In this document: positions 1-10,461 of the stretch, piece after piece | How positions within the stretch are numbered: the first letter of the stretch is position 1 | Layout of the letters: the number at the start of each line of letters is the position of its first letter | Assembly: GCA_016186945.1 (NCBI GenBank) | Contig: JACPKR010000068.1 | Location: 1-10,461, forward strand | Source: Deltaproteobacteria bacterium | Lineage (GTDB): Bacteria; Bdellovibrionota_B; Oligoflexia; Oligoflexales; Bog-1112 | DNA length: 10,461 nucleotides | Reading direction: 5' to 3' | Translations under genes and position numbers: made by a program | Notes under the pieces: generated by a model | The model's input: only the letters and a program-made list of their open reading frames with translations | What the model was told of the DNA's origin: nothing | Database searches by the model: none

Positions 1-24
1 GATTTGCGCTGTTTTTAAACTCGA

Positions 25-558
25 ATGCCTGAAAATAAAACACAAGATGAATCATTTTGCTTTGAGGGTAAAACTGTTGCTTACAGCAACTCAGCAGGCT
101 TATTTTCAGCTACAAAAACTGCAGGGTGCGTAACATCAGTTAGTAATGCTGTGACAGACTTCATTTCGTCCCTCGGAAACATTAACGCTTCAAACATCGT
201 CCAAGAGTATGACGGACTCAAACAGTTTATGAGCGATACGTTTCGGATCAAGTTTGACGCTGAGACGAGGGAGTGGATTGGACAGGTTCGAAACGAGGAC
301 CTCGCACAAATCTTCAAGATCAAATCAAAGGAAATCATCTCCGACCAAAAAGGAGCCTATCAGGTCACAGCCTTTGCCAGAGCCGACTTCTACATGGCCG
401 GTCAGTATCTGGGTAACGAAGAGCAAGTCGTTGAAATGCAACTTAGACTCGTGCCACCCGACCGAAAAAAGCGCTGGTACCTGGAAATCACGAGTCTTAC
501 CTGGAGCAAGCTAGAGAAATTTCAAAAACGATCGGACTACCAAAACCTTACAAAATAG
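25..558 (+). CDS. traE: TraE-like (VirB8-fold) conjugation protein, anchor missing as read
   Basis: This 177-residue protein is probably TraE, the VirB8-like scaffold of F-type secretion channels. In the family, a short cytoplasmic tail and one membrane helix precede a periplasmic domain. Here the periplasmic part is recognisable: a predicted helical stretch (TDFISSLGNINASNIV, about 45-60) and a C-terminal beta pattern ending in LVPPDRKKRWYLEITSL (about 142-158). Its place directly before traK and traB matches F operons. The membrane helix is absent. The ATG at 25 has no clear Shine-Dalgarno site, and an in-frame TAA at 16-18 closes the frame upstream. The hydrophobic residues FALFL occur in another frame at 3-17, so the true N-terminus may lie outside the window and be separated by a frameshift. 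The start is therefore uncertain. Identification rests on context plus a weak fold-level pattern. Confidence 0.72.
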   Translation: MPENKTQDESFCFEGKTVAYSNSAGLFSATKTAGCVTSVSNAVTDFISSLGNINASNIVQEYDGLKQFMSDTFRIKFDAETREWIGQVRNEDLAQIFKIKSKEIISDQKGAYQVTAFARADFYMAGQYLGNEEQVVEMQLRLVPPDRKKRWYLEITSLTWSKLEKFQKRSDYQNLTK

Positions 559-1390: not shown

Positions 1391-2620
1391 TTGAAGTTAT
1401 TGAAAAACTTTAATCACAGAAAAGTCGTGTCATTTATCGAAAACAATCGTTCTTTGGTAATAATTGTAGCTGTCACAATCATTTTAGGAGCGATCTATAT
1501 TCTGGGTAAAAAAGAAGACAGCAAAGTTGTGTCCTATTACAATCACGAGCAACCCGATTTCACAAGTGGCCGCATTCTATCATCCAATATCGACATCTAT
1601 CAGAAGAAGGATCGTGTTATTAGCGACAAGTTGGAGGACATGGAGGCGAAAATAAATTCGTTAACCGAACTTTTAAAGGAACAAAAAGACGACATTTCCC
1701 TGCTGAAAGAAAGCAAAACCAAGACACAGGATGAGTCAGGGGAGCCAGTGATTCCTGCTTCTCCCCAGAGTGATACCCCTCCTGGAGCATTTGACGAACA
1801 GCCTCGCCATTTCAGCAATGAAGTTCATGATCCTGTGCCGGTAATTCAGGAAGTCCCTCTTGTGAGACAGGCGTCTCCCTCCTTGCCCCCGACAGAAGGA
1901 CCAGTGGTTATTTCGTTTCCGGTAAAGGCAAAAACGAAGGATGGTCCGATGGGAGTGACGCTTCCTAGCGGATCCTTTGTGCGGGCAAAGCTTTTGACCG
2001 GCGTTGAGGCCCCCGAGGGAAAAGCTCTTCCCGTCCTCCTGCAAGCAGACTATGCGTTCGTCGGGCCTAATAAAGCCAAGGTCGACCTTTCAGGCTGCTT
2101 CTTAATCGCTAAGTCAACGGGAAACTTGTCCATTGAACGTGTCGAGATGCAGACTACCAAGATATCTTGTGTCGCCAAATCGGGGCGAATGTTTGAACGG
2201 GAGATCAGCGGTTTTGTAGCTGATAGCAAGGACAATTCCTTTGCAGTTGTGGGAGATGTCAACAGCAAGCAGGACCGCGTGGCAACCATGGCGTTTTTGT
2301 CGTCCATCGTTGAAGGCATCGGCAGTGCAATTGCCCGGTCTCAAACAAGCGCCGTCCCCGGCACTAACGGAGGATCCACGCTGGCAATCACTGGCGACCA
2401 ACAGAGCTACATTGCTGCCAGTGGTGCCAGTAACGCGGCCTCCGCCGTCACCCAGTGGTACCTAAAACACGCTGAAAACCTGTTGCCAACGATCAACATT
2501 GGTTCCGGTCAAGATCTTTGGGTCGTGGTTCAAGAGTCCGTCGAACTTCCTAACTGGTATTTCAAAAAATCTTCCACAACTCACAGTGAATTCGGTTTCT
2601 TAAGCAAACTTGTTGACTAA
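1391..2620 (+). CDS. traB: TraB, VirB10-like channel scaffold
   Basis: This 409-residue protein is TraB, the VirB10-family protein that spans from the inner membrane to the outer core of the conjugation channel. It shows the full family layout. A short cytoplasmic tail is followed by one membrane helix (about 22-38), a coiled coil (about 74-108), and a proline-rich periplasmic linker (about 119-175). A C-terminal beta barrel then begins near LPSGSFVRAKLLTGVEAP and ends with a DLWVVVQESVELP strand. The barrel contains two cysteines in the GCFL and ISCVA stretches. At 409 residues it is somewhat shorter than F TraB (about 475). Translation starts at TTG 1391 behind a good ribosome site, 29 bp after traK. 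It should assemble with TraK and TraV, encoded on either side. Confidence 0.9.
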   Translation: MKLLKNFNHRKVVSFIENNRSLVIIVAVTIILGAIYILGKKEDSKVVSYYNHEQPDFTSGRILSSNIDIYQKKDRVISDKLEDMEAKINSLTELLKEQKDDISLLKESKTKTQDESGEPVIPASPQSDTPPGAFDEQPRHFSNEVHDPVPVIQEVPLVRQASPSLPPTEGPVVISFPVKAKTKDGPMGVTLPSGSFVRAKLLTGVEAPEGKALPVLLQADYAFVGPNKAKVDLSGCFLIAKSTGNLSIERVEMQTTKISCVAKSGRMFEREISGFVADSKDNSFAVVGDVNSKQDRVATMAFLSSIVEGIGSAIARSQTSAVPGTNGGSTLAITGDQQSYIAASGASNAASAVTQWYLKHAENLLPTINIGSGQDLWVVVQESVELPNWYFKKSSTTHSEFGFLSKLVD

Positions 2621-2621
2621 G

Positions 2622-2627
2622 AAAGGA
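2622..2627 (+). promoter_or_regulatory. Ribosome binding site for traV
   Basis: AAAGGA lies six bases before the ATG at 2634, immediately after the traB stop at 2618-2620. It selects the ATG at 2634 rather than a TTG at 2610 inside traB. The 2634 start gives a proper lipoprotein signal beginning MRTLTAILLII. Confidence 0.65.
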
Positions 2628-2633
2628 CAAAAA

Positions 2634-2981
2634 ATGCGTACCCTCACAGCCATTCTCCTTATTATTGCTCAAGGATGTGCTCTGAACCGTGCTCCAAGCT
2701 TGAATCTTCTGGAAAAGCGCGCCGACTTTGATGGTATCAACGAAATCGAAACATCCCTTCAGGCCGTAGACAACCCCCTGCTTGTACCTGTTCGCACTGA
2801 GCCTGTCGTTGCGGATATCTGGGTCCATCCTCATGAGTTGCCCAATGGGGACTATTTCCGCGGCGCCTGGATTCGTACTGTCGTAACCCGATCGGGGTGG
2901 AGAGTTGATGATGAACCTAAACCCCTTCTGATAGGGAACGAGCAAAAACAAAAGAGAAAGGGCCATCATGAGCATGAGTAG
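2634..2981 (+). CDS. traV: TraV, short outer-membrane lipoprotein of the core complex
   Basis: This 115-residue lipoprotein is probably TraV, which has the role of VirB7. In F it anchors the TraK-TraB ring to the outer membrane. The signal peptide ends in IAQGC, so the lipidated residue would be Cys15. The lipobox is slightly unusual, with Ala and Gln at -3 and -2. The C-terminal part carries the TraV-like stretch PVRTEPVVADIWVHPHELPNG followed by a W-containing end, matching the family's P-R-T-P...IWI.P.D..G pattern. It is short compared with F TraV (about 170), and most of the variable middle is missing. The final 14 bases overlap the start of traC, which suggests translational coupling. 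Position between traB and traC supports the call. Confidence 0.8.
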   Translation: MRTLTAILLIIAQGCALNRAPSLNLLEKRADFDGINEIETSLQAVDNPLLVPVRTEPVVADIWVHPHELPNGDYFRGAWIRTVVTRSGWRVDDEPKPLLIGNEQKQKRKGHHEHE

Positions 2982-5538
2982 CACAAACCAGTCTCCTGGT
3001 ATGCGTAACGCTTTGCGGAACAGATCAGTTTTGACCAAGGAACTGTCCCAACGCCCTCAGTCTCTTGCCGCGCTTTTACCTTATGACGAATACCTGCCGG
3101 ATCACCAGGTGTTTGTGATGAAGGATGGTTCATTGGGTGCAGTCTTCGAAATCCATCTTGTGGAGCATGAGTCGCTAACGGAGCAGCAAATTCTCAAAGT
3201 TGTTCACTCCACGAAAAGCTGGTTTAGCCTACCCGAGCGCTTCGTTCTTCAGTTCCACTATGACTCGTCCTATTACTCGCCCCTTGACAGGCGACTGACG
3301 CAGATCGCCAAAAGTTATCCAGAGGCAAACCAGGTTGCAAAAATCCTGTTCGAAAAAAAGGTAGAACGTCTCAAAACGTCATGCCACCAGCAGGGGCCTG
3401 AAACACCCATGGAAAGACTCCTTTTTGTCTCGATTCGTTATTTTCCGTTTGGAACGAAAACGACGTTCAGACAACCCGTCCGGGGCAAGCATGGCATTCT
3501 TCGTTCGCAAATCAAGGGGTTTCAAGACGATTTGGCAACCTTTCTTCATCATGTGCGAAGTTTCGCGTCAAGCGTTCAATTTGGAATTATACCATTGTCG
3601 AATCATGGGTTATGCGAGTTCTTACGCAAATTCTTTAATCCGTCCACCTACTACAAGCGATCATTTGCCCCGGTAAATGACCATACGACCCTTGCTGATC
3701 AGGTTGTTTACGCAGCACCCGTCCTTGATTTTGACGGAATCACGAGAGAGGGATTTAAAACGAGAACCATAACTCTCAAGACTTCGCCTGCATTTTCTTA
3801 CCCGGGAGGCATGGCACAATTTGTTGTTCTTGATTTTCCGTTTCGTATTGGCATCAATATCTCGTTTCCTACGTTGGGGAAAGTGAAGAAGTTTCTGGCC
3901 CTGAAAGAGTTTTTCCTCGAAAACGCCATGACAGCGCGGGCCAAGATTCAACAAGAGGAGATCAAAGCGATAGGAGAAGCTCTGGCACGAGACGATCGTG
4001 TTCTTCAGATGACTTTTACTGCAATCATCGAAGGGAAAAACGATGAGGAACTGGACGAACGTGCTCGCCGCATCTGCCAGGTTTTTCATCACGACTTGGA
4101 ATGCGAGGCGATCCAGGAAGACGACATCGGACTTGGGCTTTGTCTCAACACCCTTCCACTCAATTACACTCCCGATGCTGACTACTCTAGCAGACGGGCG
4201 ATCAGGATTTTAAAATCAGACATCATGACCTTCATCCCACTCTTTGATTCATTTAAAGGGCTTCTAAATCCGCTCTCTATTTATCTGTCGAGGGAAAACA
4301 ACCTGGTTTCGTTTTCGCTCCTCGAAAATGAAACCTCCAATCACACCGTCGTTCTCGCTGATACGGGATCCGGCAAATCAGCATTTGTCATCGACTGCAT
4401 TCAAGCTGCAAAGAGACTCAGTCCAGAGCCGATCGTTTTCGTCATCGACAAGAAGTCGAGCTACGGGATGTTGAGCCAGTATTTCGGTGGCGATCTGACC
4501 GTTTTTGACAGAGGAAAGGAGATTCCGTTTTCACCATTTCGGGGAATTTACAATGACGAAAAAATCGCGTTTCTCACCAAGATGATCGTCATGGCCGTCA
4601 AACTCACCTCCCCTACGTTTGTTGTCGAAAGCGAGCACCAGACCGCAATCAGTAAGGCTCTGAAACTAGCGTTTCTAAAAAAGTGCGAACGAGAAGGATT
4701 AGAATACGTCGATGGTGAGTTTGTCAGAAGGTCACAGGCTGATCAGGTGGCCATCAGCATGAACGATTTCGTGGTCGAACTGGGAAGCCTGACCAAGGAT
4801 AAAACGCAAGATCAGGATTTCGTATCGCCCTTAGTATCAAAGCTCAAACCCTTCTATGGGGATGGCACCTATGCAAGGTTTTTCACAGAAGGCAAAAGCT
4901 GGGACGACAAACAAAAGCTCTTCTATGTCTATGACCTCGACGCCCTTGACGGTGATTCCACTTTGCAGACACTTATGACCATGAGTGTTATTGAAGAAAT
5001 TCGCTGCATTCTGTCCTTGCCACAACATCAAGGACGGACAGGATTTTTGGTCATGGAAGAATTTGCCATGCTTGGACGCAACAATCCAGCTTTCCGAGAT
5101 TTTGCCATCGACTTTGCGGAAACCATGCGCAAACGGGGCTGCTGGTTGATAACCCTGACACCACGACCACAGAATTACTTTGATCTGGAGGTGGGCAAAG
5201 CTTTCTGGGGCGTTGCCGACAACTTTGTTTTTTTGCAGATGAGTTCCGATAACGTCGATTACATTGCCGAGAAGTCTTCTCTTCTTGACGAAGCGAACCG
5301 GGAAATCATCCGGTCACTACGAACGAAGAAAGGTCAGTACGCCGATGTGTTTTACATGAACAAGAGCAAAAACAGGCAAGGTGCCTTCCGCTTTCGACAA
5401 ACCTCTTATGATCGGTGGATGAGTCCGACCAATGCTTTGGATGCCCTGGAAGCGATGAGGGCGCTGGAGAAGTTTCCAAACAAATGGGAGGCGCTGGAGT
5501 ATCTTGCGGCAACCTTCCCGCGCGCCGTTCCCCAATAA
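2968..5538 (+). CDS. traC: TraC, VirB4-family ATPase of the conjugation machine
   Basis: This 856-residue protein is TraC, the cytoplasmic VirB4-type ATPase that powers pilus assembly and substrate transfer in F-type systems. The TraC N-terminal domain is clear: SLAALLPYDEYLPDHQVFVM at about 32-51, then DGSLGAVFEI. The P-loop domain follows. Walker A is ADTGSGKS (464-471). Walker B is FLVMEEF (693-699), with Glu697-Glu698 in place of the usual Asp-Glu. A TLTPRPQNYFD stretch (about 729-739) corresponds to the conserved Gln motif of the family, and GQYADVFYM near the C-terminus is also family-like. Length matches F TraC (about 875). Two ATGs, at 2968 and 2974, follow AAAGGG; the first gives a 14-bp overlap with traV. 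Both are plausible. The identity of the gene is very secure. Confidence 0.95.
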   Translation: MSMSSTNQSPGMRNALRNRSVLTKELSQRPQSLAALLPYDEYLPDHQVFVMKDGSLGAVFEIHLVEHESLTEQQILKVVHSTKSWFSLPERFVLQFHYDSSYYSPLDRRLTQIAKSYPEANQVAKILFEKKVERLKTSCHQQGPETPMERLLFVSIRYFPFGTKTTFRQPVRGKHGILRSQIKGFQDDLATFLHHVRSFASSVQFGIIPLSNHGLCEFLRKFFNPSTYYKRSFAPVNDHTTLADQVVYAAPVLDFDGITREGFKTRTITLKTSPAFSYPGGMAQFVVLDFPFRIGINISFPTLGKVKKFLALKEFFLENAMTARAKIQQEEIKAIGEALARDDRVLQMTFTAIIEGKNDEELDERARRICQVFHHDLECEAIQEDDIGLGLCLNTLPLNYTPDADYSSRRAIRILKSDIMTFIPLFDSFKGLLNPLSIYLSRENNLVSFSLLENETSNHTVVLADTGSGKSAFVIDCIQAAKRLSPEPIVFVIDKKSSYGMLSQYFGGDLTVFDRGKEIPFSPFRGIYNDEKIAFLTKMIVMAVKLTSPTFVVESEHQTAISKALKLAFLKKCEREGLEYVDGEFVRRSQADQVAISMNDFVVELGSLTKDKTQDQDFVSPLVSKLKPFYGDGTYARFFTEGKSWDDKQKLFYVYDLDALDGDSTLQTLMTMSVIEEIRCILSLPQHQGRTGFLVMEEFAMLGRNNPAFRDFAIDFAETMRKRGCWLITLTPRPQNYFDLEVGKAFWGVADNFVFLQMSSDNVDYIAEKSSLLDEANREIIRSLRTKKGQYADVFYMNKSKNRQGAFRFRQTSYDRWMSPTNALDALEAMRALEKFPNKWEALEYLAATFPRAVPQ

Positions 5539-5571: not shown

Positions 5572-6966
5572 ATGCTCCCTGAAACCAAGACTGAGAAAGT
5601 TTTTTGTGTTCCAGGATCGATTCTACGGGACTTTCTCTTAGGAGATAGGGGTTTGGCATGGGTCGGAATAGCGGCTCTAGGAGTGCTGATTTCGGCATCG
5701 TCAATCTTAGCAAAAGATATCGGATACTTTTCTACCAACTATTTTGAGCCTTCCGACTACTTATACGGATCCAATGGCGCCCATGGTGATCCTGTGTTTG
5801 ACCAGTACCGAACCATTGACCTTGATATCGACATTGGGGTCAATTCCGACTGCGGACGCATCAGCATCCGCAACACTTTGCGGGCTGCTTTAAAGAATAT
5901 ACTCGACTCAAAATATCTCGGTGCGATCGGTCGAGATATTATGGCAGCTAGTCCCATGCTTATGGTTTGTTATTTTAGTCCGACGTGGTGTGCGATTTTG
6001 AAGCAAGCACAGCTAAAAGCCGGTCTTCTGGCTCAATTTCGTCTCAATCAATGTGGATTAATCGACAAATACACCGATCAACGGGTTTCCGACTTTTACG
6101 AGGACCGTTCTCGCTGCGTGCAAGGTGCGATTAGAAAATACGACGGAAACTTCGAGGAGGCGATGGAATCCTGTAAAAACTACGCCGATTTCGACATCAA
6201 AGACTGGGGTGGACAAAAGGGAAATGGAATGAAGAAGCTCATCGAGTCCACCGCAAGATGGGCCAAGATGACAGACGAGCAAAGTAAACGCATTGTTGAC
6301 CTTACCAAGGCTTTCATTGGAGACACGATTGTCAGACAAGGCGAAATCCATGTCGACTTTGGTCCAAGGCGGGTACAACTTACGCCTAGAACCTATCTTA
6401 TGGAGGTGAAGGCGACTACATTTAAGAAACTTTGCAGTGAGCTTTTGCCCAAACTCGTGCGAGCAGGAGGCTACCGCGCTAATGTTTACAAGGTTATTAG
6501 CGAAAGCGATCTAAAAGACGTAAGTGGATCGAACAATATCAGGCTCGATCACCAGACCATGTTGTCGCTGGCCTACATGCCGTATCAGAAAAGAAATCTA
6601 GCCTGTCGCAAACTTTCCGATGCCCTCGCCATGGGCACGTATACAAACGACATGGGCAAAGCCCTCGACTTTATCTCGTCCACTTTGCAGAGCAACCCGC
6701 ATCTGCCAGAAAAACACAAAAAGGAAGCGGAGTTAAAACGTCGAGCGTTCAAGGATCACGTAGAAATCACTCTATCGTTAGAGAGCCAAAACAGTGACCC
6801 CATCAATCAGGTTCTCTTCCAGATCAATCAGGAAGGCATGAAGTACCTGAAAACTGCGTCAGATAGGGAACTTGATAATGAACGTGAATCTGTTCATTCC
6901 AAGCAAGTCGACAATCTGTTCTTTGATTGCGCTGACGGCGTAGGCTGTCAGTATCAACATCGTTAA
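5572..6966 (+). CDS. traH: TraH-like exported, cysteine-rich pilus assembly protein
   Basis: This 464-residue protein is probably TraH, a periplasmic or outer-membrane-associated protein needed for F pilus assembly. A basic N-terminal tail of about 27 residues precedes a hydrophobic segment (28-46) ending in ILA before Lys48, so it looks like a long signal peptide. The mature part has the cysteine pattern of TraH. DCGR (Cys94) corresponds to the GCGG site, MVCYFSPTWC (Cys133, Cys140) to the VCPQC region, and NQCG (Cys161) to the NSC site. Ten cysteines lie after the signal region: 94, 133, 140, 161, 182, 201, 288, 345, 453 and 459. This suggests disulfides. The ribosome site is GAGG at 5562-5565. 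The gene sits 33 bp after traC and before traG, the order TraH-TraG as in F. TraU was considered, but the TraG neighbour and cysteine spacing favour TraH. Confidence 0.75.
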   Translation: MLPETKTEKVFCVPGSILRDFLLGDRGLAWVGIAALGVLISASSILAKDIGYFSTNYFEPSDYLYGSNGAHGDPVFDQYRTIDLDIDIGVNSDCGRISIRNTLRAALKNILDSKYLGAIGRDIMAASPMLMVCYFSPTWCAILKQAQLKAGLLAQFRLNQCGLIDKYTDQRVSDFYEDRSRCVQGAIRKYDGNFEEAMESCKNYADFDIKDWGGQKGNGMKKLIESTARWAKMTDEQSKRIVDLTKAFIGDTIVRQGEIHVDFGPRRVQLTPRTYLMEVKATTFKKLCSELLPKLVRAGGYRANVYKVISESDLKDVSGSNNIRLDHQTMLSLAYMPYQKRNLACRKLSDALAMGTYTNDMGKALDFISSTLQSNPHLPEKHKKEAELKRRAFKDHVEITLSLESQNSDPINQVLFQINQEGMKYLKTASDRELDNERESVHSKQVDNLFFDCADGVGCQYQHR

Positions 6967-7052: not shown

Positions 7053-8576
7053 ATGTTTGCTTCAACAGCATACGAAGCTTTCTATACATATATTGGACTT
7101 TACCTACATCAAGCATCGATCGCCATTATTACATCCCAGGAAGTTCTCATGGCCCTCATGCTTTTGATCCTGGGGTGTACCTTTATGTTGGGCACCTGGC
7201 GCTACTTTTCAAAGTATATGCCGGGAATAATTGGCGGTGGCCGAACGGGGGGAGCTGGATTTTTCGTAAAAATCTTCGCCTGCTTTCTCCTTGGTGTCTC
7301 GCTCTTAAAAGTTGACACCCACGAAACTGTAAAAAGCTTTCAACGAGAATCATGGTCGTCAAATCCCTATATTTACTCCAGGTTGCCTGCTGTTCATGAT
7401 CGTTATCAGGTGAGCTTTATTTTCTCTCTGTTAACCAGAGCCGCGGAGGAATTTGCAAAACTCGGTACCGAAATTGTCGACCTTCTCTTTAAGAAAACCA
7501 ACTCTGAACTAGACGCTCCAGCCGCATTCTATCGGGCTGTGATGTTTGCGGGAGCGCAAACGATCGACGATCCCGGTCTCACGGACATGATAGATGTTTA
7601 TACCAACAACTGTTTTGATAAAGTTCTACCCATTTTGGGACAAGCCAAAAACACCGACCGTATCGATGAATTCTTCAAAGAAAGTGGCGTCGTCGATCAG
7701 GAACTTAAGCTGATCCCGATCGTCACAGAGGACGGCGGCAAAATTACCTGTCTTGACCTTAAGAAAGACACGCGCAGGCAGCTTTTGACCTTTGCCCAAG
7801 AAAAAGGCGCCCAATTTAGCAAGTACTACCACGGCAAAGTTAGCATTCACCGGGTGGAGTACGATGATGTGCAAAAAAATCTCATTGCCTCAAACGCATT
7901 GGTAAACCATTACCTTTCGAAAAGCGAGGATTCCCTAGGTACAGCTTCCGGTGCCCAGGTGGAAGGGACCCTGGCAAAGTTACTCATGGACTGGGGTCGA
8001 TTCTGGTCCTTTGATGGGTTTCTGAATCTGATCGGCCAAGGAGATCAGGTAGGAGCCGCTCTTACGGCAAAACGGGCTTCGCAGTTCTCGGAATATCTGC
8101 AAAGGGCTCCCCATCTCAAGGGTATGGTTAAACTCTTTCTCATAGCTATCTTTCCATGGCTTATTTTTTTCGTGATTGCGGGTCGATGGAGGGTTTTAGT
8201 TTCCTGGTTTGCGGTTTATATTTCGGTGCTTTTGTGGACTCCGATTTGGAGCCTGCTTTATCACCTCATGACGAGCATTGCCTTGTCTAACGAACTCCTA
8301 GCCGAATTCGGACGTATTAACGATGGGGTTTCTTTGTATGCGTCAAGCTTCATAACCGCAAAGCTTTACCAATTCTATGCGATCTATTCTTGGTTGCAAT
8401 TGATCGTCGGTCCCTTACCAACTTTGGTGCTGGGCTACGGTCTTTTCTCAGCTTTCCTAAAGGACTCGGAAACGGAACAAACGCCCACTGTTATCACGGC
8501 AGCCAGGGACGTAGGTATTGGCGCAGCGACAGGTGGTGTGTCGGGGGCAGCCGGGGCTGCAATTAAAAAAGTCTAG
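7053..8576 (+). CDS. traG: TraG-like membrane protein, N-terminal domain only
   Basis: This 507-residue polytopic membrane protein resembles the N-terminal half of F TraG, an inner-membrane protein needed for pilus assembly. Membrane helices are visible near 31-48 (VLMALMLLILGCTFML), about 68-85 (FFVKIFACFLLGVSLL), 360-377 and 380-405 (a strongly hydrophobic pair), and about 440-465. A largely soluble loop of about 270 residues lies between the second and third helices and contains YTNNCF near residue 190, as in TraG-type proteins. The C-terminus is a short glycine- and alanine-rich tail ending in KKV. F TraG is about 940 residues and its C-terminal periplasmic part works in mating-pair stabilisation and entry exclusion. 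That part is absent here. No broken remainder follows, because the coupling ATPase starts 10 bp after the stop. The adjacent traH supports the name. Confidence 0.78.
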   Translation: MFASTAYEAFYTYIGLYLHQASIAIITSQEVLMALMLLILGCTFMLGTWRYFSKYMPGIIGGGRTGGAGFFVKIFACFLLGVSLLKVDTHETVKSFQRESWSSNPYIYSRLPAVHDRYQVSFIFSLLTRAAEEFAKLGTEIVDLLFKKTNSELDAPAAFYRAVMFAGAQTIDDPGLTDMIDVYTNNCFDKVLPILGQAKNTDRIDEFFKESGVVDQELKLIPIVTEDGGKITCLDLKKDTRRQLLTFAQEKGAQFSKYYHGKVSIHRVEYDDVQKNLIASNALVNHYLSKSEDSLGTASGAQVEGTLAKLLMDWGRFWSFDGFLNLIGQGDQVGAALTAKRASQFSEYLQRAPHLKGMVKLFLIAIFPWLIFFVIAGRWRVLVSWFAVYISVLLWTPIWSLLYHLMTSIALSNELLAEFGRINDGVSLYASSFITAKLYQFYAIYSWLQLIVGPLPTLVLGYGLFSAFLKDSETEQTPTVITAARDVGIGAATGGVSGAAGAAIKKV

Positions 8577-8586: not shown

Positions 8587-10131
8587 ATGTCCAACTATCC
8601 GAACAACAAAGACAGTTTTTCGAAATTTGCCTCAAAGCCTGACGCAATAGGTCAGTTCGTAACTGAAGTATTGCAGGAAGCCATCATGGTAGGGTCCATA
8701 GGGTTTTGGCACCTCCTGAAGTCCATTTTTTCCAAGCGCGGGATCATCACAATACCGCTGATCTCCGGTATCGGATGGGTTAGTTACCGGATCGGGTCCA
8801 AAGCGCAGCATCTTGTGTATCTGTACGAGCTGGAGCCGCGACTGTTCACAGCGTCCAGGGTCAACTGGCTGTGGACTTTTCCCATGATGTATCACGTGGG
8901 TATCCTCTTTGCGCTGTTCGCCTTCCCCGTTGTGATTGTCATGGGAATTTGGGCGCGAAGTATACGTACGAAATTCAAACGAATTTTTAAAAATGCCCGC
9001 CTGGTCAATGGCCTGGGGGACACACCGAAACTGATAAGAGAACGTCGAATCGATAAAGAACGACGACTGTATCTTTTTGATGCGAATGGCATAGGGATTA
9101 GCGAATTTGAAGGGAAAAAGGAGCAAATAGAAAGTCATTTTAGGTCGAATGTCGAGACGATCAAGTATGGAGCCCACAAAGGGCAAATTGCCGTTACGTT
9201 TTCGAAGCAAATATTCCCCGAGAAGCTCCATTTTAACGAACTCGTGACCATGAAAGTCCTCCCGAAAGAGAGTTTTTATATCGGAATCTCCGTTGAAGGC
9301 GTTAAAACCCAAGAGATTGCCGCGCTGCCACACATGTTAATTGCCGGTACCACAGGAGGGGGCAAATCTGTCTTTTTCAAGCAATGCCTCTTGGGGCTGC
9401 TCGAATCATCACCCCACCTGCAAATGTATCTGATCGATTTGAAGTCGGGTTTGGAGATGATCGACTTTAAGAAAGCCCCCAACGTCCAAGTGATAAAGCA
9501 TATTGATCAAGCTGTGCTGGTCCTTGGGCTTGTGGAAAGGGAAATGAAAGATCGCTTTGCGTATCTTGAAATGGTTAATCGGAAGCAGATCGTTCCCGAA
9601 ATCGACAACAAAGATCGCGTCATCATTGGTGTGGATGAGGCATCTGTGCTGTATATGAACCGCAGCAGGCACGATCCAGATTACGAAGCAGCACTTGAAG
9701 CAAGAAGATTGGCCGATTCGATATCGAAACTGAGCCGTGCGGCAGCGATTCACCTTTTGCTCGCGACCCAAAAACTTGACCGACAGGTTATTCCCACGTC
9801 CGTATCTGAAAACATCTCGGGACGTATGGCGTTTAGGGCCAATTCGCTGCAAGGAAGTTTAATTGTGCTGGGTACGAAAGATGCTTGCGAGCTGCCTGAA
9901 ATCCCTGGTCGCGGTATCTGGAGCTTCGGGACAAGGAAAGTGATCGTCCAGGCACCATTTGTCGACGAGAAAACGGTTAAAAGCAGATGCCAAGGCATCG
10001 AGGACATGTTCAAGACGGGTAAACGAAAAATCCTTGGAAAAATGCTTGGTGATGCCCAATGGGAAGCGACCAGTCAAAAACAGGATGACACTTATGTCGT
10101 AGTGGAGGGAAAAAATGACCTTCAGGCTTAA
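8587..10131 (+). CDS. FtsK/SpoIIIE-type membrane ATPase, probable conjugative coupling protein
   Basis: This 514-residue protein is probably the coupling protein that delivers DNA to the secretion channel. Two membrane helices (about 52-68 and 103-122) precede a cytoplasmic FtsK-type motor domain. Walker A is GTTGGGKS (254-261). A LIDLKSGLEM stretch, typical of FtsK/SpoIIIE (LIDPK-like), follows. Walker B is VIIGVDEAS (345-353), and HLLLATQKLD (389-398) is the FtsK-type LATQRP-like motif. The GTKDACELPEIPGRGIW stretch matches the FtsK pattern of a Gly-Asp-like turn followed by a P-G-R-G or P-G-R-A segment. This looks closer to TcpA-type or ICE FtsK-like couplers than to TraD or VirD4, which have an all-alpha domain between the Walker motifs. 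It has no FtsK gamma domain, so a role in chromosome segregation is unlikely. The gene follows traG by 10 bp and overlaps the next ORF by 17 bp. The motor class is sure; the coupling role is inferred from context. Confidence 0.85.
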   Translation: MSNYPNNKDSFSKFASKPDAIGQFVTEVLQEAIMVGSIGFWHLLKSIFSKRGIITIPLISGIGWVSYRIGSKAQHLVYLYELEPRLFTASRVNWLWTFPMMYHVGILFALFAFPVVIVMGIWARSIRTKFKRIFKNARLVNGLGDTPKLIRERRIDKERRLYLFDANGIGISEFEGKKEQIESHFRSNVETIKYGAHKGQIAVTFSKQIFPEKLHFNELVTMKVLPKESFYIGISVEGVKTQEIAALPHMLIAGTTGGGKSVFFKQCLLGLLESSPHLQMYLIDLKSGLEMIDFKKAPNVQVIKHIDQAVLVLGLVEREMKDRFAYLEMVNRKQIVPEIDNKDRVIIGVDEASVLYMNRSRHDPDYEAALEARRLADSISKLSRAAAIHLLLATQKLDRQVIPTSVSENISGRMAFRANSLQGSLIVLGTKDACELPEIPGRGIWSFGTRKVIVQAPFVDEKTVKSRCQGIEDMFKTGKRKILGKMLGDAQWEATSQKQDDTYVVVEGKNDLQA

Positions 10132-10333
10132 AGGGATGTATCTTTATCCTCGGGACATCGAATTTTTGAAGTACCTTCATGCGGTTAAGATTGCAACGTA
10201 TGAACAGATCAGACGAGATATCTATGGCGAAATTTGCATCCATGCTGTTGGCAATCGAATGCGTAAGTTTAATGGCAATCGCCTCGTGCATATAGGTATC
10301 AGCAGGACTTACCGTCAAGGGGGACCGTCGTAA
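10115..10333 (+). CDS. Short replication-relaxation-like winged-helix protein, possibly truncated
   Basis: This 72-residue ORF starts at ATG 10115 behind GGAGG (10104-10108) and overlaps the ATPase gene by 17 bp, so it is likely translated by coupling. The N-terminal residues LYPRDIEFLKYLHAVKIATYEQIRRDIYG, given here as positions 9-37, fit the first helices of plasmid replication-relaxation or MobC-like winged-helix proteins: an R-D start, a leucine-rich helix, then a T-x-x-Q-I helix. A second helix with AVGNRMRKF and RLVHIG follows, like the RL..L...GLV pattern. The family is normally about 200 residues, so this is short. In another frame, GLTVKGDRRK (10308-10337) resembles the L-T-x-K-G turn that usually comes next, which suggests a frameshift near 10295-10307. 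The remainder to 10461 shows nothing else that can be named. Function is uncertain: a nicking accessory, a transfer-related regulator, or a decayed copy. Confidence 0.45.
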   Translation: MTFRLKGMYLYPRDIEFLKYLHAVKIATYEQIRRDIYGEICIHAVGNRMRKFNGNRLVHIGISRTYRQGGPS

Positions 10334-10461
10334 AATCTGTGTCTGCTAAGATTTAGTTGACAAGACCAATTCTTGCAACAGTACTTTCTATAACATTTAT
10401 CTTTTGACCTACTCGCTGGTTAAAAACACCAGAGTCTATTGCGTGATGCTGCCAGTTCAAC

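Follow-up and report, generated by a model that had tools for sequence, protein, structure and literature searches.

Which motor hands DNA to an F-type conjugation channel when the gene behind traG encodes a protein similar to FtsK? VirD4 couplers are assigned to all Gram-negative T4SSs and TcpA is limited to an MPF_FA subset (2025 review, PMC12857230), with TcpA having been reported in Firmicutes only (PMC5357655). No paper on the couplers of Bdellovibrionota was found in the open-licence literature. The original prediction had placed an FtsK/TcpA-like ATPase in the coupler position of an F-type system.

The F-type operon and the state of its copy

The window, that is, the whole stretch of DNA that was analysed, comprises all 10,461 bases of contig C62 of a draft genome (G000; 2.66 Mb in 76 contigs, 91% complete). 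By its named relatives the genome belongs to Bdellovibrionota, kin to predatory bacteria, and lies close to Oligoflexales. The features of the window are the following.

1-138, plus strand: 3′ end of an insertion sequence (IS) transposase gene and IS terminal inverted repeat, interrupting traE
139-558, plus strand: traE (VirB8-type), 3′ part, with the 5′ part on contig C61
570-1361, plus strand: TraK (VirB9-type), profile match including TraK_C
1391-2620, plus strand: TraB (VirB10-type), PRK13729 2e-29
2610-2981, plus strand: TraV lipoprotein, profile match
2968-5538, plus strand: TraC (VirB4-type ATPase), TIGR02746 2.5e-53
5572-6966, plus strand: TraH-like periplasmic protein, from a weak PF06122 match (0.003) of a homologue and gene order
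7053-8576, plus strand: TraG-like polytopic membrane protein (channel component), from weak PF07916 matches of homologues (3.8e-7) and gene order
8587-10131, plus strand: putative TcpA/FtsK-like coupling ATPase of 514 aa, from Pfam, profile and model
10115-10333, plus strand: Replic_Relax/MobC-like relaxase gene, 5′ part only, family identity via intact homologues
10321-10461, no strand: 141-base repeat with an exact copy at the end of contig C58, an assembly repeat and probable insertion point

The missing upstream half of the operon is contig C61 (L176; 6,139 bases), which contains three small ORFs, traU, a GspE/PilB-like ATPase gene, a gene for a TrbC-like thioredoxin protein, a TraA-like ORF and the 5′ part of traE. 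The F-type core (TraC, TraB, TraK, TraV and TraE) is thus all present in the window and C61. The F-specific set, as seen in the window, C61 and homologues, consists of TraU (on C61, PF06834 above cut-off), the thioredoxin-like TrbC/TraF and weak TraH and TraG_N matches; TraN and TraW were not identified. The profiles for TraC, TraB, TraV and TraK_C, together with TraU, bear out the F-type context that had been proposed. The ATG of the motor ORF sits 11 bases past the traG stop at 8576, and the order TraH-TraG-FtsK is seen again in 11 other loci, so that it is not due to chance.

In the F-type operons that were read, traU and trbC are separated by a gene for a GspE/PilB-like ATPase (L176 2620-4215, with PF00437 at E 4e-87; L005 1549-2586; and relatives). 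A VirB11-type ATPase is normally missing from F-type systems.

The end of C61 (about 6008-6139) and the start of the window (1-138) appear to be opposite ends of a single transposase gene. Matching inverted repeats stand at the contig break (TGATGTTACGCAC on C61 and GTGCGTAACATCA in the window), the 7-base repeat TTAGTAA flanks it, and the two halves of traE belong together. An insertion sequence thus splits traE. At the other end, the relaxase gene is cut off after about 64 family-matching residues, at the 141-base repeat. Barring an assembly error, the disruption of both genes probably makes the window's own copy of the element inactive. The coupler ORF itself is intact.

The motor protein and its relatives

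FtsK_SpoIIIE (E=5e-16) was the sole Pfam family found in the 514-aa protein. The Walker A (GTTGGGKS, K260) and Walker B (VIIGVDE, D350) motifs are unchanged across 39 homologues, and the FtsK/SpoIIIE motifs originally noticed behind traG are thereby confirmed. The two N-terminal membrane helices proposed at the same time are reasonable, the second being strongly hydrophobic (aa 104-122, mean KD 2.55) and the first weak (aa 47-65, KD 1.23 in the window protein, reaching 2.1 among homologues).

The AlphaFold model (pLDDT 86.8) has N-terminal helices at residues 18-47, 52-71 and 100-136. Its architecture is one of N-terminal membrane helices, an FtsK alpha-like domain and a single RecA-type motor. 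The motor ends near aa 477; the remaining C-terminal residues, about 37, are modelled for the most part with low confidence. The DNA-reading gamma domain that housekeeping FtsK carries at its C-terminus was not found in the Pfam scan. In conclusion, the protein encoded at 8587-10131 is a membrane-anchored FtsK-type motor, right after traG in an F-type operon.

A profile from the 39 homologues, compared with solved structures, ranked pCW3 TcpA first (E 1.7e-55, covering the alpha domain and motor), followed by FtsK (7e-37) and then type VII EssC/EccC, with VirD4/TrwB not among the matches listed. Respective comparisons of the model gave Z 32.6 with TcpA 6o1z (350 residues, 3.3 A), Z of about 32 with FtsK chains (335 residues) and Z 16.3 with TrwB (200 residues). 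Since the first two scores are about equal, TcpA and FtsK are not separable by structure alone.

The profile searches do not assign the protein to the TraD/VirD4 family. PF10412, PF02534 and PF12696 gave no match up to E 0.1, and a helical insertion of the size of an all-alpha domain is absent from the model. In detail, the distance from Walker A to Walker B is 90 aa in the window protein and in L061-L069, and 220-250 aa in three VirD4 proteins of the same phylum. The structural check suggested for a TraD-like all-alpha domain was thus negative.

Similarly to TcpA of pCW3 from Clostridium perfringens (PDB 6o1w-6o1z), the protein combines a single FtsK-type motor, an alpha domain and N-terminal membrane helices, lacks an all-alpha domain and would serve as a T4SS coupler, a role that is known for TcpA and proposed here for the window protein. 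On the other hand, the two are merely 22-24% identical, and pCW3 TcpA works with an MPF_FA channel and the TcpM relaxase in a monoderm, whereas the motor studied here goes with a MobC-like relaxase and with an F-type or VirB-type channel of a diderm. The motor is called TcpA-like and is not filed as TcpA, because it lies outside the published distribution (MPF_FA, Firmicutes) and the tree does not group it firmly with TcpA. With F plasmid TraD, VirD4 and TrwB it shares the proposed role and a distant FtsK/HerA superfamily kinship; it differs in having neither the all-alpha domain nor a VirD4 profile match, and in its gene position after traG, beside a MobC-like gene.

The homologues were collected by an alignment-based search of genome contigs, mostly of drafts or MAGs; a single-protein pattern search of the same contigs yielded none. 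About 40 loci spread over Bdellovibrionota carry the motor, in nearly all of them with a MobC-like gene beside it, behind F-type or VirB-type channels. Within the window's own order or class, motors of this family occur in 13 of the 58 genomes searched. One locus, L076 ("Nomurabacteria"), is near-identical to L073 and probably mis-binned.

The loci fall into classes by gene order. Class A (the window with C61, L061-L070, and L079, which displays just traH-traG-ftsK-mobC) has the order traU-gspE-trbC-traA-traL-traE-traK-traB-traV-traC-traH-traG-ftsK-mobC-like. Intact class A operons are found at least in L064, L066, L067 and L070, with couplers 49-56% identical to that of the window. Class B, with most of L074-L101, is VirB-type: VirB2-, VirB3/TraL- and VirB4-like genes, an unknown gene, VirB6- and VirB8-like genes, a second unknown gene (VirB9-like by position), a VirB10-like gene and then the ftsK-mobC-like pair. 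Class C (C4, L194-L197) repeats the F-type operon of class A, but its traU is joined to the gene for a TraD-like coupler.

In the phylogenetic tree, the 39 motors form a single clade (support 100/99), in agreement with the separate coupling-motor lineage of diderm bacteria that had been suggested. Class A is a subclade (99/97) with L079 apart, and the VirD4 proteins fall outside the motors (98/95) on long branches. The backbone, with its long branches, is not firmly supported, and the tree gives no firm join of the motors to TcpA (represented by a TcpA-like protein of Enterocloster instead of pCW3 TcpA), chromosomal FtsK or the Bacillota FtsK-Replic_Relax proteins.

Several further observations concern these genomes. 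In G000, a draft that is 91% complete, the PF01580 scan picked up only the window protein and a single weak GspE match; a housekeeping FtsK was not detected. Upstream of the class A operon, two genomes share a conserved divergent cassette (L180 10393-13622 and L181 11241-14548) of an HTH protein, a response regulator, a solute-binding-like protein and a sensor kinase-like protein. Downstream of the MobC-like gene, a DUF3560-type protein of 543-580 aa is encoded in L064 (12950-14692), L066 (13065-14717) and L067 (14182-15813), with integrase-like genes farther on. Distant FtsK matches on proteobacterial plasmids (Polaromonas, Methylobacterium) proved to be large proteins beside phosphorothioation/defence-like genes, and were rejected as conjugation couplers; the IMG/VR matches are FtsK proteins with 24-33% identity.

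The MobC-like partner and the VirD4-type couplers

In nearly all loci, a MobC-like gene, with a product of about 240-280 aa, stands directly downstream of the motor gene and usually overlaps it (by 17 bases in the window). The same pair follows VirB10 in the VirB-type operons. The original pairing of the motor with an F-type channel holds, with the correction that the unit is a motor and MobC-like relaxase pair, which serves VirB-type channels too.

PF13814, which PMC5357655 treats as the MobC relaxase superfamily, barely passes its gathering score in two loci, L064 and L026, and stays below it in the others. The NCBIfam "MobC family replication-relaxation protein" model (NF041423) matches L064 at E 6.5e-6, under its 200-bit cut-off. 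The structural model (pLDDT 92) contains a MarR-like winged helix (Z 12, the match spanning the winged helix alone) and a C-domain of alpha-beta-beta-beta-alpha-beta order with invariant E124, D148 and E165. Its nuclease matches, to BsaWI and FokI, are weak; MOBC relaxases are treated as restriction-endonuclease-like in PMC6499999. In a sample of 25 proteins taken from four elements of this kind, no other relaxase family was seen. In the CloDF13 record, read as a yardstick for MobC, mobC was not recognised.

There are two cases, L192 and L193 (G045, contigs C89 and C52), where the coupler gene that a MobC-like gene overlaps is genuinely VirD4-type, the one on C89 matching NCBIfam SXT_TraD at 7e-38. 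MobC-like genes thus pair with either motor type, and the FtsK-like motor fills the coupler's place. This exchange in the slot beside the MobC-like partner is the best independent argument for a coupler role. The pairs themselves (L192 672-3273 and L193 3-2233) are likely mobilizable elements; on the L192 contig a recombinase-like ORF follows the pair and no T4SS channel gene was recognised.

Couplers encoded with MOBC/Replic_Relax relaxases are known from CloDF13 (MobB-MobC) and from the PF13814-VirD4 pairs of streptococcal IMEs, although these couplers are VirD4-type. The coupler of the MOBC plasmid CloDF13, MobB, is encoded by the plasmid itself and aids relaxation as well (PMC7431656), a precedent for the coupler-relaxase pairing. 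No TcpA with a PF13814 relaxase is reported in the surveys (PMC5357655, PMC12479173).

The same adjacent or overlapping FtsK and replication-relaxation pair is found on the Bacillota plasmids pMU3262, pGspE55-2 and pBEH4. Unlike in the present operons, no conjugation operon was recognised in the stretches read, and the motors are only about 25-28% identical. Such pairs, on Bacillota plasmids typed non-mobilizable (L188, L190, L191 and L206), are candidates for overlooked mobilization modules. One Bacillota pair stands beside phage lysis genes, and no T4SS gene occurs in the stretches read; an FtsK-Replic_Relax pair therefore need not mean T4SS coupling everywhere. A possible analogous pair is found on a linear pELF-type plasmid of Enterococcus (L209 4821-6823), where the FtsK gene overlaps a 209-aa ORF without a PF13814 match.

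For VirD4-type genes, the class C coupler profile was used as the probe, and it detects every class C locus (positive controls). The class A loci, 289 kb in all, gave no match, and neither did the class B loci. A second TraD-like coupler on the same element, which would have spoken against the original prediction, is thus absent from the class A loci searched. At the level of whole genomes, G006 and G007 (94% and 92% complete, both carrying class A) have no match to PF10412 (over cut-off), PF02534 or PF12696. The class A genomes G043-G048 have VirD4-type couplers on other contigs.

The window's genome contains one TraD-like gene, with disrupted frames, in a second, paralogous F-type operon on contig C4. 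This is the sole class C operon read to its end, and its traG is not followed by an ftsK gene. As this paralogous operon carries a TraD-like gene at TraU and lacks a terminal FtsK gene, the coupler slot is swapped between the two operons.

The TraD-like coupler joined to TraU was seen in L195 (10866-13913), L194 (9042-12109), L196 (10117-13168), L197 (1-2650) and C4 (9580-12718; L004/L005). In G070 the two are fused in one 1015-aa frame. In three other loci the protein is split by a frame change at about residue 270-280, which could reflect programmed frameshifting or a gene in two parts; C4 is broken nearby too. A 342-aa ORF that precedes the C4 coupler (L004 7538-8566) weakly resembles the MobC-like family (hhalign P 0.012), a similarity that is no more than suggestive.

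The proposed coupling role and its alternatives

In this F-type conjugation system the motor is likely to be the coupling ATPase, TcpA-like (FtsK-class) and replacing TraD/VirD4. We infer this function from the motifs, the predicted fold, the operon order, the co-occurrence with MobC-like genes and the absence of VirD4-type genes from the loci. The best reading is that a TcpA-like coupler and a MOBC-like relaxase form a module mounted on diderm channels. The relaxase would bind the oriT of the element through its winged helix, cut it with the endonuclease-like domain and pass the DNA to an FtsK-like hexamer. The latter would be anchored in the inner membrane via its N-terminal helices and dock on the TraB/TraC/TraG complex, and its ATP hydrolysis, judging from fold and motifs, would pump the DNA into the channel.

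The likeness of TcpA to FtsK has prompted a dsDNA proposal for pCW3 (PMC12857230). It seems unlikely, though conceivable, that the MobC-like endonuclease cuts dsDNA at oriT and that the motor here pumps this dsDNA, and not relaxase-bound ssDNA, through the diderm F-type channel. TraB of Streptomyces is likewise an FtsK-type motor in DNA transfer, as is proposed here, but it moves dsDNA without a T4SS (PMC5365140). Its profile matches the window protein weakly (E 0.009) and a class B member at 1e-11.

Alternatively, the FtsK-like motor and Replic_Relax protein might be a maintenance or segregation module, with the true coupler a VirD4 protein supplied in trans by another element. Dimer resolution and copy-number or replication control, as perhaps on the Bacillota plasmids, are roles that such a module may have. 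The pairs on those non-mobilizable-typed plasmids without T4SS genes in the stretches read agree with this, as do the VirD4-type genes elsewhere in G043-G048 and on C4 in the window's own genome. However, G006 and G007 carry class A without any VirD4-type match, and class C operons bring their own coupler, so self-sufficiency seems to be the rule. Moreover, the motor gene lies within transfer operons of two channel types, straight after the last channel gene, and in L192 and L193 the partner of the MobC-like gene is a genuine VirD4 gene. This explanation is accordingly a doubtful one.

A functionless remnant, whether an artefact of the contig or a set of degenerate genes confined to one genome, is very improbable. 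The insertion in traE and the truncated relaxase gene fit it, and the window's own copy may still be such a remnant; for the family it is refuted by the intact operons named above, and the window's coupler ORF is whole. Least credible of all is the loss of the all-alpha domain from a divergent TraD/VirD4 coupler: the two kinds of protein share the FtsK/HerA superfamily and the coupler role (general knowledge; PMC12857230), but the VirD4-family profiles do not match, TcpA ranks first and FtsK second, the VirD4 proteins stand outside in the tree on their long branches, and the model contains an FtsK/TcpA-type alpha domain.

The gene pair itself is already known, since FtsK and "replication-relaxation" neighbors are annotated on Bacillota plasmids; no role assigned to them turned up in the open-licence literature. 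New with respect to that literature are the use of TcpA-like couplers by F-type and VirB-type systems of diderms, and a TcpA-like motor with a PF13814/MobC-like relaxase. A lineage of this kind across Bdellovibrionota, on F-type and VirB-type channels, breaks the published coupler rules. A TcpA-like motor on diderm channels implies that couplers are exchangeable modules, and provides a setting in nature in which to study what decides whether a T4SS passes ssDNA or dsDNA. Mobility typing by VirD4 profiles alone would miss the TcpA-like/MobC-like elements.
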